30,454 nucleotides of DNA, from positions 1 to 30,454 of IMG/VR virus record IMGVR_UViG_3300020156_000070. One strand, 5' to 3'. The position numbers and the translations under genes were made by a program. The DNA is from a virus. A model generated the notes under the pieces. That model was not told the DNA's origin. It saw only the letters and a program-made list of their open reading frames with translations, and did no database searches. This document shows, piece after piece, positions 4,910 through 30,454 of this stretch. Within the stretch, counting starts at the first letter, position 1, and every line of letters begins with the position of its first letter.

Positions 4910-5629
4910 CTACGGTAGGCAGTTCAGCGCGCTGGTGGGCGTGTCCACCTGCGTCGGCGCCTGGTCGTAGATGGTACGCATGACGCAGCCTTCTTCGGTG
5001 GAAACGGGATACGGACCGGTGACGATGCCACGGCCCGGCTCTCCGTCTACCCCGTCCTTGCCGTTGACGCCGTCCTTCCCCTGGCACTGCTGCGGAGTGC
5101 TCAGGCACGGCGGGCTCTGGCCGTCCTCCGGCACCGGAATCTGCAGCACGACGTCGCGGATGATCCGGTCGTAGTCGATGGTCGGGGTCTCGCCGTCCTT
5201 GCCGGGCGCCGGCGCGGGGATCTTCGCCTGGACCTCCCGGACGATCCGGTCATAGTCGACAGCCGGGGTCTCGCCCGCCGGTCCGCGCGGCAGCAGGTCC
5301 GGGTTCTCCCGCAGGGTGTCCTCGATCAGCTTCCGGACCTCGGCGTCCGACCGGCGTGGCGCGGGCACCTCCACGGTGCGCTGTTCGATGACCGTCTTCA
5401 CCTCGGCCGCCTTCTGGCAGGTAGCCGGGTCCGGCGCCACGGTGGGGTTCGAACAATCCGCGATCGTGCGGTCCGCGAGATCGACGGCCACCACCTCGTT
5501 GGTATCTGCGCGCTTCTCTTCCCGATCTGCTTCGGCACCGAGCGAATAGGACGCGGCTGCCACGAACAGCACGGCGACCGCGTATCCGGCGGACCGGACT
5601 TGCTTGTTCGTGCGCGCGTTCCTGATCAT
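4910..5629 (-). CDS. Membrane-anchored collagen-like repeat protein
   Basis: This 239-aa protein starts at ATG 5629 inside the upstream stop (ATGA). A basic N-terminus is followed by one transmembrane segment (residues 12-30, YAVAVLFVAAASYSLGA), so most of the protein should lie outside the membrane. Two adjacent 27-residue repeats occupy 116-142 and 143-169; each has GETPxxDYDRI followed by a valine-rich strand and Pro-rich end. Residues 184-200 are collagen-like Gly-x-y (GKDGVNGKDGVDGEPGR). Six Cys (59, 71, 175, 182, 215, 237) could form disulfides outside the cell. The location in the lysis cluster suggests a wall-spanning or surface role, but no family function is known to me. Confidence 0.75.
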   Translation of the reverse strand: MIRNARTNKQVRSAGYAVAVLFVAAASYSLGAEADREEKRADTNEVVAVDLADRTIADCSNPTVAPDPATCQKAAEVKTVIEQRTVEVPAPRRSDAEVRKLIEDTLRENPDLLPRGPAGETPAVDYDRIVREVQAKIPAPAPGKDGETPTIDYDRIIRDVVLQIPVPEDGQSPPCLSTPQQCQGKDGVNGKDGVDGEPGRGIVTGPYPVSTEEGCVMRTIYDQAPTQVDTPTSALNCLP

Positions 5630-26417: not shown

Positions 26418-26764
26418 CCGGTGGCTCGGGTGCCGAGCGCCCGCACCGCCGCGCTGTTCACGCTGGCCGTCACCGGGATGGCTTCCCCCAGGTCCGCCAT
26501 CAGCTCCCGTGCGAAGGCGCGGTTCTCCTGTGCCTGCTTCCCGCACTCCTGCATCCGGGCCTTCTCGAGCAGTTCGTCCATCTGTCCCGTGCTGTAGGTG
26601 ATGTGCGGCCAGTCCTCACCGTCGCCCACGCCGAACAGTTCCCTGCCGAGTTCGGTCAGGCTGCCCACGCTGTTCGCCAGGTAGCGGCCGTACGGCATGC
26701 CCTGCGGTGCGGCCACGTATCCGTTGAACTCGCTGCTGTAGCGGATGTCGTATGCGGTGGTCAC
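26414..26764 (-). CDS. Hypothetical 116-aa protein
   Basis: GTG 26764 overlaps the terminase small subunit stop (GTGA). The N-terminal half has aromatic strands (YDIRYSSEFNGYVAAPQG) and a short helix (SLTELGRELFGV); the C-terminal half is a charged helix (QMDELLEKARMQECGKQAQE) with a Thr/Ala-rich end. One Cys. No family recognised. Translational coupling to the small terminase suggests a packaging-related or co-expressed role, by position only. Confidence 0.6.
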   Translation of the reverse strand: MTTAYDIRYSSEFNGYVAAPQGMPYGRYLANSVGSLTELGRELFGVGDGEDWPHITYSTGQMDELLEKARMQECGKQAQENRAFARELMADLGEAIPVTASVNSAAVRALGTRATG

Positions 26765-27333
26765 TGAGTTTCCCTTTCGTGAGTGGAATCGTTGAGCCCC
26801 AACTGCTCGACCAGTTCGCGCAGTTCTTCATCCGGCGACTTCGCCGGAGCGGTGATCTCGACTTCCTGCTTGACCGGGACATCGGTGCCCCAGAGCTTGC
26901 GCTTGCTCTCGCTCAGCTTCCGGATGGTCTCGATCGCCTGCACGATCGGCCTGCTGTCGAGCAGCGGCTCGCAGGTGCAGTCGTTCACCGCGGTGTGCCG
27001 ATCCGCTGAGCAGTCCGCACTCCACCGGATGACACGCCCCTCGCTGACCACCAGCTGCATCCGCTCGTTGCCGAGCACGTCGTACGCCAGCCGGATCAAG
27101 TCGTCCAGTCGGTCGGACTCGAGCTGCCGGCGTTCGTTCACCAGCGGGTCGCGGACCTCCGCGGTCCAGGCTTTCAAGTCGTTCGCTACCGTCTGGTGCG
27201 ACACACCGAGTTCAGCGGCGATCTGCCGGTAGGACAGACCACGGATCGCCAGCCGGTGCGCCTGCTGCCGCCGTTCGGCCAGGGCAGCCTGCACGGTCGC
27301 GTCCTTGGTCGGGTGCTGCGACGGCTGGGCCAT
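26761..27333 (-). CDS. terS: Terminase small subunit (HTH)
   Basis: ATG 27333 has a strong AGGAGG site 10 bases upstream, better than the TTG at 27357. The 190-aa protein opens with a helix-turn-helix at about residues 30-57 (RGLSYRQIAAELGVSHQTVA), as in small terminases that recognise the packaging site. A charged helical middle with a CTC motif and an acidic C-terminus follow (ITAPAKSPDEELRELVEQL). It lies upstream of the large subunit, separated by three small genes, and likely starts the packaging module. Confidence 0.82.
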   Translation of the reverse strand: MAQPSQHPTKDATVQAALAERRQQAHRLAIRGLSYRQIAAELGVSHQTVANDLKAWTAEVRDPLVNERRQLESDRLDDLIRLAYDVLGNERMQLVVSEGRVIRWSADCSADRHTAVNDCTCEPLLDSRPIVQAIETIRKLSESKRKLWGTDVPVKQEVEITAPAKSPDEELRELVEQLGLNDSTHERETQ

Positions 27334-27385
27334 GATCGTCAATCCTCCTGAATCCAACTACCTGCTTGATCAACGTACCTGTTGA

Positions 27386-27847
27386 CTACGACTCGATGTA
27401 CCGAACAGCCAGCGCCTGCCTCGAGTACCGGTCGGCGTCCTCTGCCAACAGCCAGGTGATCGGCTTGCCCTCGAACGTCGACACCGGCAGTTCGTGCGGC
27501 CGAATCTGCTGCGTCCAGTCCCGCACGATCTGCGCACCCGGTGTCTTCCGGTCCAGCCCGATCGTGTGGTCGATCGCCAGCCGGTCAGCCTCGCCCCGCT
27601 CGCCGGCCGCCCGGCCGAACTCGCAGCGCGCGTCCGTGCACTCGGCGATCCACCGCAGCGTCGGCTCCGACCACCGGACCTGACCGAGGTGCACGACCGG
27701 CGGCACCCACTCCGCTGCCGCCCGTTCCCGCTTGCGCCGCGGTCGCCAGGCGAACAGCCAGAGCAGGCCGAGCCAGGTCGCCGGCACGATGGCCAGCGTC
27801 AGCACGGTGAACAGGATGCCGCCGAGCACAGTCATTACCTCGATCAT
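27386..27847 (-). CDS. Membrane-anchored hypothetical protein, 153 aa
   Basis: ATG 27847 overlaps the preceding stop (ATGA). Residues 5-33 form one long hydrophobic segment (VLGGILFTVLTLAIVPATWL and on), followed by a strongly basic stretch (RPRRKRERAA), so the C-terminal 115 residues should be cytoplasmic. They contain two Cys (ECTDARC) and an alpha/beta-looking end (LPVSTFEGKPITWLLAEDAD). No family recognised. The gene is not coupled to the small terminase, from which it is separated by 52 bases. Confidence 0.6.
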   Translation of the reverse strand: MIEVMTVLGGILFTVLTLAIVPATWLGLLWLFAWRPRRKRERAAAEWVPPVVHLGQVRWSEPTLRWIAECTDARCEFGRAAGERGEADRLAIDHTIGLDRKTPGAQIVRDWTQQIRPHELPVSTFEGKPITWLLAEDADRYSRQALAVRYIES

Positions 27848-28374
27848 GACGGGTCTCCGTATCCGTAGCGGTGCAGCAGCCGGATGAGCATGTCCGCCCG
27901 GATGCGCGCGTGGGCCGGACCGAGCACCGGCTCGAAGGAGACGAACGGCCCGGCGTAGAGCCTGGTCAGCACCGAGAGCCGGGCGTGAATCCACCAGTGC
28001 TCCGGCCGCTTGCGGTCACGCCGCTCGACCAGGAAGACCATGTTCGGCCCCCCGATGGCGTCGGGGGACCAGGCGATCGGGGCCATCTGCTCGGCCTCAT
28101 CCAGGAACTGGGCCACCTCGCCATCGGTCAGCCCGCCGTCACGCATCTTGACCGACCAGATGATGCCGGGCGTGCCGGTGATGTCCCCGGGGTCGGCCGC
28201 CGAGCGCCCGCCCGCGCGCCACCCGGTGACGATGGCCCGGTTCGCGTTCGGCCATCCAGTTGCCCGCAGGAAGCCCGCAAACTGCCGTTCGTAGGTCAGA
28301 CCCCGGGAACGGGCTGAGCGGCCGCGAGCGGACCGACTGGCGGCCTCTGCGTCCACCTCTACGCGGGCGGTCAC
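27844..28374 (-). CDS. PD-(D/E)xK-like nuclease or Holliday-junction-resolvase-like protein
   Basis: GTG 28374 overlaps the preceding stop (GTGA). The 176-aa protein follows the fold seen in phage resolvase/RecB-like nucleases: E29 in an N-terminal helix (LTYERQFAGFLRATGW), then GDITGTPGIIWSVK, where D64 and K76 match the conserved Asp and Lys but the usual Glu two residues before Lys is Ser74. The rest is helices and strands (AQFLDEAEQM, MVFLVERRDRK, WWIHARLSVL). A nuclease that repairs or cuts branched DNA is the likely function, but the Ser replacement may mean reduced or altered activity. It is placed early in the leftward operon. Confidence 0.65.
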   Translation of the reverse strand: MTARVEVDAEAASRSARGRSARSRGLTYERQFAGFLRATGWPNANRAIVTGWRAGGRSAADPGDITGTPGIIWSVKMRDGGLTDGEVAQFLDEAEQMAPIAWSPDAIGGPNMVFLVERRDRKRPEHWWIHARLSVLTRLYAGPFVSFEPVLGPAHARIRADMLIRLLHRYGYGDPS

Positions 28375-28706
28375 GACTGACCCGCCGATTCGAGAGCCAG
28401 CTGGCAGAACTCGCACTCGGCCAGCCGGCCCGAGTGGGTCACGCCCGGGAGCCGCACGTCCTCGTGCGTCGGCCCGACCACGTAGGCCGCGATGCGGATC
28501 GAACGCGAGTCGAGCACCCGGGCGAATCCACGCAGCCCGTGCCGGCGGCACCAGTTCCGCCACGCGTCGGCCGCCTGTGCCGGGCGCTGTTCGAAGTCCA
28601 CGCCCCGGGTCAGCTCCCACTCCGCTCCGTCAGCGAACCGGGGCCAGTCCACCCGGGGTGCGTACGGGGCCGGCTCCGGGGCCACCGGCACGATGCGTTC
28701 TGCCAT
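28371..28706 (-). CDS. Hypothetical 111-aa protein, first gene of the leftward operon
   Basis: The ATG at 28706 lies just after GGTGGAGG. The product has a Pro-rich start, Trp-containing helical stretches (DWPRFADGAEWELTR, ADAWRNWCRRHGLRG) and strands (VLDSRSIRIAAYVV). Three Cys include an ECEFC pair near the end. I do not recognise it. It is the first gene after the repeat-rich region, so the main promoter of this leftward transcript should lie just upstream, but no convincing -10/-35 pair was found. Confidence 0.6.
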   Translation of the reverse strand: MAERIVPVAPEPAPYAPRVDWPRFADGAEWELTRGVDFEQRPAQAADAWRNWCRRHGLRGFARVLDSRSIRIAAYVVGPTHEDVRLPGVTHSGRLAECEFCQLALESAGQS

Positions 28707-28776
28707 GCCTCCACCCTAGCTGATCGGCTGTCGATTGTCGTGTTTCGGTTTGGCTTCCTGCCGACTGCCTGCCAGC

Positions 28777-28812
28777 GCGTACGGCCCCCTCTCCCCCGGA
28801 GGGGCCGTACGC
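28777..28812. terminator. GC-rich hairpin upstream of the leftward operon
   Basis: GCGTACGGCCCC (28777-28788) and GGGGCCGTACGC (28801-28812) form a perfect 12-bp stem with a 12-base loop. No U-tract follows on either strand, so it could be a T-less actinobacterial terminator or a structural or operator element. It lies between the repeat array and the first leftward gene. Confidence 0.5.
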
Positions 28813-28826
28813 GCGCGCGAGGGCGA

Positions 28827-29097
28827 GGTTGTCCAGTGGTTGTCAATGATCTTGTTAGGTTGTCCGTCGCAGGTCAGGGCGGTTGTCCGAAAAACAGGCC
28901 TCTGGTTGTCCGGGAGGTTGTCAATGATCTTGTTAGGTTGTCCGTGCCTGGTCAGGGCGTTTCCGATATGTCCGTTTTGTCCGGTACAACCCCCCTGAAG
29001 ATCCACATCGGTTGTCTGAGCTGTGACCAGCAGAAACAGGGTTGTCCCAAGATCTTTTACTGGCCAGTAGACAACCAGATCAAGATCCCGGACAACC
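28827..29097. repeat. GGTTGTCC iteron-like array (candidate origin or operator region)
   Basis: Copies of GGTTGTC[CAT] occur in the same direction at 28827, 28838, 28858, 28881, 28904, 28916, 28936, 29010 and 29040, and inverted copies (GACAACC) at 29070 and 29091. Spacings in the first seven are 11, 20, 23, 23, 12 and 20 bp, so the sites fall close to one face of the helix. A 77-78-bp unit (from 28827) is repeated in tandem (from 28904), including an AT-rich ATGATCTTGTTA between sites. The stretch is clearly less GC-rich than the genes around it and has no supported ORF. It lies next to a replicative helicase gene. Confidence 0.75.
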
Positions 29098-29140
29098 GGC
29101 TGCCGACGCAGGCCCCTCTGCATGACCATGCACTCTCGGT

Positions 29141-29177
29141 GCAGCGTTTGTTACATCCTGTACGTAACAAACGCTGC
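29141..29177. repeat. Perfect 14-bp inverted repeat with 9-bp spacer
   Basis: GCAGCGTTTGTTAC (29141-29154) and GTAACAAACGCTGC (29164-29177) are exact reverse complements. The centre (ATCCTGTAC) is not symmetric. It lies between the iteron-like array and the helicase gene's 3' end. It lacks a U-tract after the stem, so an operator, origin dyad or recombination site is more likely than a simple terminator. Confidence 0.75.
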
Positions 29178-29206
29178 CACTCGCCGTCGTGACCATGCGT
29201 CCGCGC

Positions 29207-29244
29207 GCATGAAAACGGCCCCTCCCCGTTGCGCCCGGGGAGGG
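29207..29244 (-). terminator. Rho-independent terminator after the helicase gene
   Basis: A 9-bp GC stem (CCCTCCCCG 29220-29228 with CGGGGAGGG 29236-29244, 7-base loop) lies about 20 bases downstream of the helicase stop. In the leftward transcript it is followed by CCGTTTTC, a short U-run. It should end the transcript that comes from the right, separating the replication genes from the late region. Confidence 0.8.
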
Positions 29245-29264
29245 ACCGCCCAGCGCGGAGCCGC

Positions 29265-30454
29265 CTACTCGCGCTGGTCTTCGGGCACCCAGATGGAGCG
29301 CCCCGTCTTCCCGCTGCTGCCCTCCGGCACGATGGCGCCGGCGGCAACGAGCGTGTCCCATGCCCGCCGGATGGACTGGTCCGAGAGCTTGCGCTCGAAG
29401 AAGGTGGCCGCTTCCGCACGCGACCGCCCGGCACTGCCGAACGGGGCGTTGTAGGCCATGTAGCGCGCCAGGTCCGGCACCAGCTTGAGCCCCGGCCCGT
29501 GGACCTCCGCCAGTGCGCCGATGTCCGGTGGCTGCTCGCTGTCCCACTGCTCGGCCAGCCGCGCCATGACCGGCCCGGTGCCGTCGACCAAGACCCCGCT
29601 GTCCGTACCGCCGATCATGGCGAAGGACAGCTCGATCCCCTTGATCTCCTCGTCGTCCTTCTGCTTGACCACGTCCACGGTGACGCCGAGCCCGCCCTTG
29701 TCGCGGTCCGGACGGGTGAACGTCAGCTCGGTGTCGATGGCCGCGGTCACCGAGCTCGAGCCGCGTCCGCGGGCGCCGGAGTGCCCCGTGTGGTGGACCA
29801 GCAGCACGCACGCGCCCGACGCCACCTTGATCCGCTCTAGTACCTGCATGACGCGCCCCATCTCGGCGGCCGAGTTCTCCTCGACGCCGATGGTGTTGCG
29901 TGCCTGCGTGTCGAAGATGACCAGGGCAAACTGCCGTTTGGCCGCGAGCGCAATCAGGCTCTCGCGCTCGAGCTCACCGAGCTGGACCGGCCGCGGCAGG
30001 AAGTACACGCCGGTCATCCGCCGCTGGTGGTAGGCCTCCCAGGCGGTCACGCGCTTGCTCATGCCCTGCGCACCCTCGGCCACCACGTAGAGCACGTCGC
30101 CGCGGCTGGCGCGCTTCCCGGCCCACGCCGACCCCTCACCGATGGCCGCGGCGAGGCCGAGCACGCCAAAGGACTTGAACGACCCGGACGCGCCGGTGAT
30201 CCGGGCTGTCGAGTTACGCACGAGTATCTTGTCCACCAGGTACTCCGGCGCGGGCAGCTGCTGCAGCTGCCAGGGAGAGAGCAGCTCGGCCTCGAGCCCT
30301 TCGGCCGCCTGCTGCGCGGCCGCCCCGCCGGCGGCGAGCGAGGCAGCCATCTGCGGATCACCGTCGATCAGGTCCTCGAGCGATTCGAAGATCCACGGCC
30401 GGCGCAGCCCCTCGGTGACCCCGCGCCCGGCCGCCTTCCGGTCGTTCGCGTCGA
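29265..30454 (-). CDS. RepA/DnaB-like replicative helicase, 5' partial
   Basis: The frame is open to the window edge, so the true start lies further right; an ATG at 30348-30350 is internal. The stop is at 29265. The Walker A motif is GASGSFKS, as in RepA-type AAA_25 helicases. Walker B is VIFDT, and a VHHTG segment followed by ARGRGSSS matches the sensor region of this family. The upstream sequence, DANDRKAAGRG, resembles the end of a Toprim primase domain, so the full protein may be a primase-helicase. A C-terminal winged-helix-like end (RAEAATFFERKLSDQSIRRA) fits family practice. It unwinds phage DNA at replication forks. Confidence 0.8.
   Translation of the reverse strand, partial: DANDRKAAGRGVTEGLRRPWIFESLEDLIDGDPQMAASLAAGGAAAQQAAEGLEAELLSPWQLQQLPAPEYLVDKILVRNSTARITGASGSFKSFGVLGLAAAIGEGSAWAGKRASRGDVLYVVAEGAQGMSKRVTAWEAYHQRRMTGVYFLPRPVQLGELERESLIALAAKRQFALVIFDTQARNTIGVEENSAAEMGRVMQVLERIKVASGACVLLVHHTGHSGARGRGSSSVTAAIDTELTFTRPDRDKGGLGVTVDVVKQKDDEEIKGIELSFAMIGGTDSGVLVDGTGPVMARLAEQWDSEQPPDIGALAEVHGPGLKLVPDLARYMAYNAPFGSAGRSRAEAATFFERKLSDQSIRRAWDTLVAAGAIVPEGSSGKTGRSIWVPEDQRE

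Follow-up and report, generated by a model that had tools for sequence, protein, structure and literature searches.

What is the function of a cluster of short repeats that lies next to a helicase gene in a viral genome? The repeats are at 28827..29097 of the window, the whole stretch of DNA analyzed here, a linear viral record that spans 30,454 bases and has 68% GC. The window is a genome fragment and derives from a tailed phage of a high-GC host, probably an actinobacterium. Few phages have a mapped replication origin, and the initial annotation of this locus proposed two roles for the repeats: the replication origin, or a central operator that separates early (right) from late (left) transcripts. 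The array is best read, with a probability of roughly 0.68, as the phage replication origin, at which the helicase encoded upstream would read GGTTGTC iterons through its own C-terminal winged helix, open the duplex and load directionally. We infer from the DNA and protein sequences all three elements: that the array is an origin, that the helicase itself binds the iterons, and that it loads directionally.

There are a total of 13 exact GGTTGTC copies in the 30,454 bp window, and 11 of these fall within 28827..29097. Nine are on the plus strand, each starting at the first base of its eight-mer: iterons 1 (28827..28834), 3 (28858..28865), 4 (28881..28888), 5 (28904..28911), 7 (28936..28943) and 9 (29040..29047) read GGTTGTCC, iterons 2 (28838..28845) and 6 (28916..28923) read GGTTGTCA, and iteron 8 (29010..29017) reads GGTTGTCT. 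The two inverted copies on the minus strand, at 29070 and 29091 in seven-base coordinates, correspond to iteron 10 (GGTTGTCT, 29069..29076) and iteron 11 (GGTTGTCC, 29090..29097), and a degenerate iteron, GGTTGTAC, lies on the minus strand at 28984..28991. The exact matches bear out the nine direct and two inverted sites initially annotated. The orientation bias is 9:2, and on the helicase-coding strand the predominant word reads GACAACC. Shuffling the 271 bp of the array 20,000 times gave at most three GGTTGTC copies against the 11 observed, the best count for any 7-mer in 3,000 shuffles was five, and the runner-up 7-mer in a scan of the whole window reached a density of five copies per 300 bp. 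As in iteron origins, short direct repeats are thus clustered here far above chance.

The spacings along the array are, in order, 11, 20, 23, 23, 12, 20, 48, 26, 30, 30 and 21 bp. The helical phasing that had been proposed is weak and not significant in this array by itself (at a period of 11 the resultant is 0.54, n = 9) and becomes clear when relatives are pooled, as described below. A tandem duplication of 77–78 bp is present as annotated: 28838..28884 and 28916..28962 (plus strand, repeat family D2) match over 47 nt at 91% with an offset of 78, and the iterons at 28827 and 28904 are 77 bp apart. The lower GC content also holds (52.8% in the array vs. 68.4%), and no other 250 bp of the window have a GC content as low as 28837–29086; iteron origins typically include an A+T-richer stretch, and at 52% GC the array is A+T-rich in a relative sense. 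The minus strand ORF that spans the array has a GC3 of 0.65, compared with 0.84–0.92 in the helicase, HTH, terminase and portal genes, and has no PHROG match, in agreement with the earlier view that the array holds no supported gene. A second motif, GATCTTG, occurs four times in the array, at 28848..28854 and 28926 on the plus strand and at 29048 and 29081 on the minus strand. GATCTTG is common to the arrays of six high-GC relatives (L177, L179, L180, L181, L183 and L187), where it is mostly found as pairs about 25 bp apart.

The array lies 168 bp 3' of the stop of a RecA-fold AAA_25 helicase gene (29265..30452, minus strand; RSF1010 RepA-like; Pfam PF13481, 4.2e-29) whose 5' end is missing at the contig end; the adjoining helicase gene named initially is indeed there. 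A 550-bp non-coding stretch separates the helicase stop (29265) from the next ORF. Proceeding from the helicase, this stretch contains a G+C-rich hairpin directly 3' of the stop (29248–29216, minus strand; inverted repeat I7, 13-bp arms, 92%), which probably terminates the helicase transcript, an inverted repeat with perfect 14-bp arms and a 9-bp loop (29177–29141), the array (29097–28827), and a perfect hairpin with 14-bp arms (28814–28775). The next gene cluster contains a RusA-labelled Holliday-junction-resolvase-like ORF (27844..28620, minus strand; phrog_244, 3.9e-11), which probably has its true start near 28374, and upstream of it a small ORF (28371–28706).

To learn how the array relates to the helicase, relatives were gathered by helicase protein sequence alone, blind to repeats. 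Four loci were followed by 80 viral and 13 genome loci found with a five-protein profile, and grouping at 60% identity gave 33 clusters, the window being in one of them. In 20/33 clusters (19/32 without the window) it was the helicase 3' end that carried the locus's densest 7-mer array, compared with 3.9 expected by length, counts that rest on a simple 7-mer measure and on a clustering that leaves some shared ancestry. Arrays significant against dinucleotide shuffles occurred at 15/33 helicase 3' ends, 2/132 control tiles and 1/31 helicase 5' ends; the window and these 15 clusters have the layout of SaPI and SCC elements, with iterons directly 3' of the helicase gene. Pooled spacings between same-strand neighbours in the relatives fell into two peaks, with 50 at 9–13 bp and 18 at 19–24 bp as against six at 14–18 bp and three at 25–29 bp, and the window spacings of 11, 12, 20 and 23 bp agree with both. 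The distance from stop codon to array is usually 1–30 bp in relatives, as compared to 168 bp in the window and 162 bp in KarlBarth. In the high-GC relatives closest to the window (L177 and L185, 42–46% identity) the array falls within the 3'-terminal part of the helicase ORF, and the diverged relative L006 has the helicase followed by a GGGACAA (TTGTCCC) array and then a RusA-like ORF. That many unrelated phages have such arrays at the 3' ends, not the 5' ends, of helicase genes of this one family supports the origin half of the initial proposal well; the operator half is not supported.

Hairpins commonly lie in or beside the arrays. Arms of at least 8 bp were found in 22/26 array zones vs. 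54/306 control tiles, and in several relatives the hairpin is built of two inverted iterons around CCTATAGG. The strict form CCTATA(TA)nGG, a core noticed after some of these loci had been viewed, is present in 7/33 helicase 3' zones and 0/492 control tiles. It is flanked by two inverted iterons and lies at most 200 bp from the helicase stop in L259, L211, L239, L192, L237 and L276; the window array is without this core.

Several named phages carry an array at the helicase 3' end: Rhizobium phages RHph_N65 (12 copies) and 16-3 (15), Roseobacter phages CRP-823 and CRP-811 (11), Idiomarinaceae phage 1N2-2 (8), EBPR siphovirus 5 (10), and E. coli phages KarlBarth and PaulFeyerabend (7 each, GCGGGACA). 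In 16-3 (L281) about 15 copies of GCGTGACA occupy 5121–5490 directly behind the RecA-like ATPase gene p101, and in KarlBarth (L282) seven copies of GCGGGAC (six of CGGGACA) occupy 5437–5540 behind the helicase gene; neither record has an annotated feature there. No array was seen at the helicase 3' end of BFK20, RW, Hannaconda, Puppers, NS-I, KYD2, BirdsNest, Jflix2, prophi79-1, SETP3 or Vibrio 19E33.1, and no comparable array was seen in the named actinophages whose helicases are closest (NS-I, Puppers, KYD2, Hannaconda and KayaCho). The array module is thus common, not universal, in this helicase family. Corynebacterium phage BFK20 (L269) has a 470-bp unannotated gap (5126–5597) directly behind its RepA-like gene gp43 with no detectable heptamer array, which may be an origin of another design.

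Which protein reads the iterons? The window helicase matches PHROG helicase/primase families, and its family profile matches RepA (1g8y), the closest solved relative, at 2.6e-15. A Pfam search at E up to 1 returned AAA_25 only and no match for the C-terminus. In the C-terminal alignment the last ~85 residues, about 311–395 of the window protein, resemble a winged helix, and the C-termini of some relatives match Pfam winged-helix families, above the IclR cut-off in L214 and below threshold for TrmB and MarR_2 in L256 and L192. Motif similarity tracks the C-terminal domain when the ATPase domain is held constant (partial Mantel 0.34, p 0.0005; reverse 0.10), a correlation present among related proteins only and gone for pairs with less than 50% ATPase identity (r = 0.04).

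The array word differs by lineage; its position and spacing persist. The words are GACAACC in the window, GGGACAA in L006, GTGAGACA in L188, CGGGACA in L244, CGTGACA in L230, GGCGACA in L259 and L264, GCGGAAG in L262, GTCGGAA in L267, CTGCTCC in L223, CCGTATC in L211, GGTACGG in L213 and GTGTGAT in L218, and TGAGACA is also among the lineage heptamers. An R before the conserved A of the recognition helix goes with GACA-type motifs in the window, L006, L244, L230, L259 and L264, and then in 16-3. As a general residue rule this pattern was rejected, since the E. coli phages do not fit; it is post hoc and serves as a lead. L185 and L177 are in the same 60% helicase cluster and have different array words (GGACAGG vs. 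GGGGAGGT), a natural pair for finding the residues that set specificity.

The SaPI/SCCmec-like layout, the winged-helix C-termini of some relatives and the correlation of motif with C-terminus together favor recognition by the helicase itself. The C-terminal winged-helix domain would recognize GGTTGTC iterons, several helicase copies would sit side by side on one helix face where the DNA of the region is least GC-rich, the duplex would be opened, and the 9:2 orientation bias would fix the direction in which the ring helicase is loaded. The main rival accepts the array as origin and assigns the reading of the iterons to a separate initiator, RepC-like as in RSF1010 or an organizer of the lambda O/TP901-1 type, which would then load the helicase. 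RepA, the closest solved relative of the window helicase, is itself no iteron reader in RSF1010, where RepC reads the oriV iterons and loads it. The contig end truncates the helicase gene and cuts off anything to its right, so that the gene for another initiator could be located beyond the window, and an HTH protein is encoded at 26761–27357 (PHROG search). Against a separate initiator, the motif tracks the helicase C-terminus, and the genes flanking the array vary among 12 relatives with no obviously shared second DNA-binding gene, as judged by eye. We consider a separate reader unlikely, and clearly the strongest competitor of self-recognition.

Recognition by the helicase itself has precedents. 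SaPI Rep and SCCmec Cch2 are hexameric initiator helicases that bind short iterons directly 3' of their own gene through the C-terminal domain (PMC7581432), as proposed here for the window. Their helicases are of the DUF927 or D5/Primase_Cterm families, whereas the window helicase matches AAA_25 only, a RecA fold (RepA/DnaB-like) found here in tailed phages, and the arrays of its family have lineage-specific words and, in several lineages, the CCTATAGG hairpin. In pRN1, too, the origin is directly 3' of a replication gene whose product has a winged helix at its C-terminus, and a stem-loop is present; pRN1 differs in being without iterons and in using prim/pol plus SF3 helicase (PMC4234260). 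Phage iterons are also physically linked to their reader in the replisome organizers of lambda (O), TP901-1 and Tuc2009, where they lie inside the initiator gene and where 11-bp GGTTGTC repeats occur in the organizer class too; in the window the linked protein is a helicase, with the array behind the gene and non-coding by GC3 and family search, and so an origin of the lambda O/TP901-1 type was rejected. The P4 alpha protein is a helicase whose C-terminal domain binds type I origin iterons, with another helicase family and another layout. A DnaA-box origin was rejected as well, with no TTGTCCACA in the window.

The array could instead be an operator or stoperator cluster of a phage repressor or late regulator that governs transcription into the leftward genes. 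Clustered and partly phased sites would also suit a repressor, and AGTGGTTGTCAAT at 28835 is within three mismatches of the L5 stoperator consensus. All recognizable genes (helicase, resolvase-like nuclease, HTH, terminase, portal, protease, tape measure and tail) and the small ORFs near the helicase are on the minus strand, however, including both genes that flank the array, and no gene start faces away from it. Since these genes all run one way, the array does not lie between divergent transcripts as the initial annotation supposed. There is no match to a sigma-70-like promoter in 28300–29500, and the suggested look for the word elsewhere, especially at early promoters, gives only two other exact GGTTGTC copies in 30 kb. 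The arrays of relatives are at helicase 3' ends, not 5' ends, and their downstream genes vary. Cluster A stoperators, which are 13-bp sites dispersed over the genome, were rejected, with none within one mismatch and the sites here packed into 271 bp. These results make a transcriptional role improbable. The suggested check by GC skew gave no switch at the array, a result that decides nothing when computed on a genome fragment.

It is more doubtful still that the array serves an extrachromosomal prophage as its partition centromere (parS/parC): tandem phased iterons are typical of parC, and mycobacteriophages with parABS have parS sites made of direct repeats, one of them lying just downstream of repA (PMC7157519), but no ParA/ParM-like gene is among the window proteins scanned, and in phages that differ widely, E. 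coli Dhillonvirus phages among them, the array goes with a replicative helicase. Least probable of all is that the array serves packaging (pac/cos) or recombination. In favor of this, the large terminase gene lies 3 kb away; against it, in none of the listed relatives was a terminase gene seen at the array, and the helicase is the constant neighbour. Used as query against viral contigs, the terminase found no relatives.

Origin recognition by the helicase may extend well beyond the window. There is perhaps an even chance that these loci form a widespread and so far undescribed class of self-contained phage replicon, in which a RecA-fold helicase has its own origin-recognition winged helix, the origin is directly behind the gene, the iteron word is quickly re-specified while spacing and position are kept, and many members have two inverted iterons that form a stem-loop around CCTATAGG. 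We found no description of arrays behind AAA_25 helicases in open-licence papers. The same layout with a lineage-specific word in many unrelated viruses suggests a simple rule for locating start sites; if it is true, the sequences of many phages, laboratory phages of E. coli K-12 among them, would allow origin and reader to be predicted, and a RepA/DnaB-fold ring helicase could do without a separate initiator and recognize the origin through a domain of its own. Its DNA word would then shift rapidly, perhaps averting interference between co-infecting phages.

The word GGTTGTC occurs in other settings. Viral contigs with three copies include many arrays, some in winged-helix phage initiator genes and some beside primase or helicase genes. 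Exact 11-bp GGTTGTC triplets were found in 38 stretches of viral contigs, and the reversed heptamer CTGTTGG, an imperfect control because its repeats can overlap (CTGTTGGTTGTC), gave 18, mostly in similar phage initiator genes. GGTTGTC was therefore rejected as a uniquely conserved universal origin word; the control finds initiator-gene arrays too, and the word alone proves nothing. Arrays with 11-bp spacing in initiator genes are a common kind. Such 11-bp DNA repeats within phage replication-initiator-like genes (L008, L044, L119, L129, L138, L155, L164 and others) encode linkers such as TTNRQPTDNQQ, and their repeat word varies among GGTTGTC, CTGTTGGTTAT and CTGTTGGTTGC.
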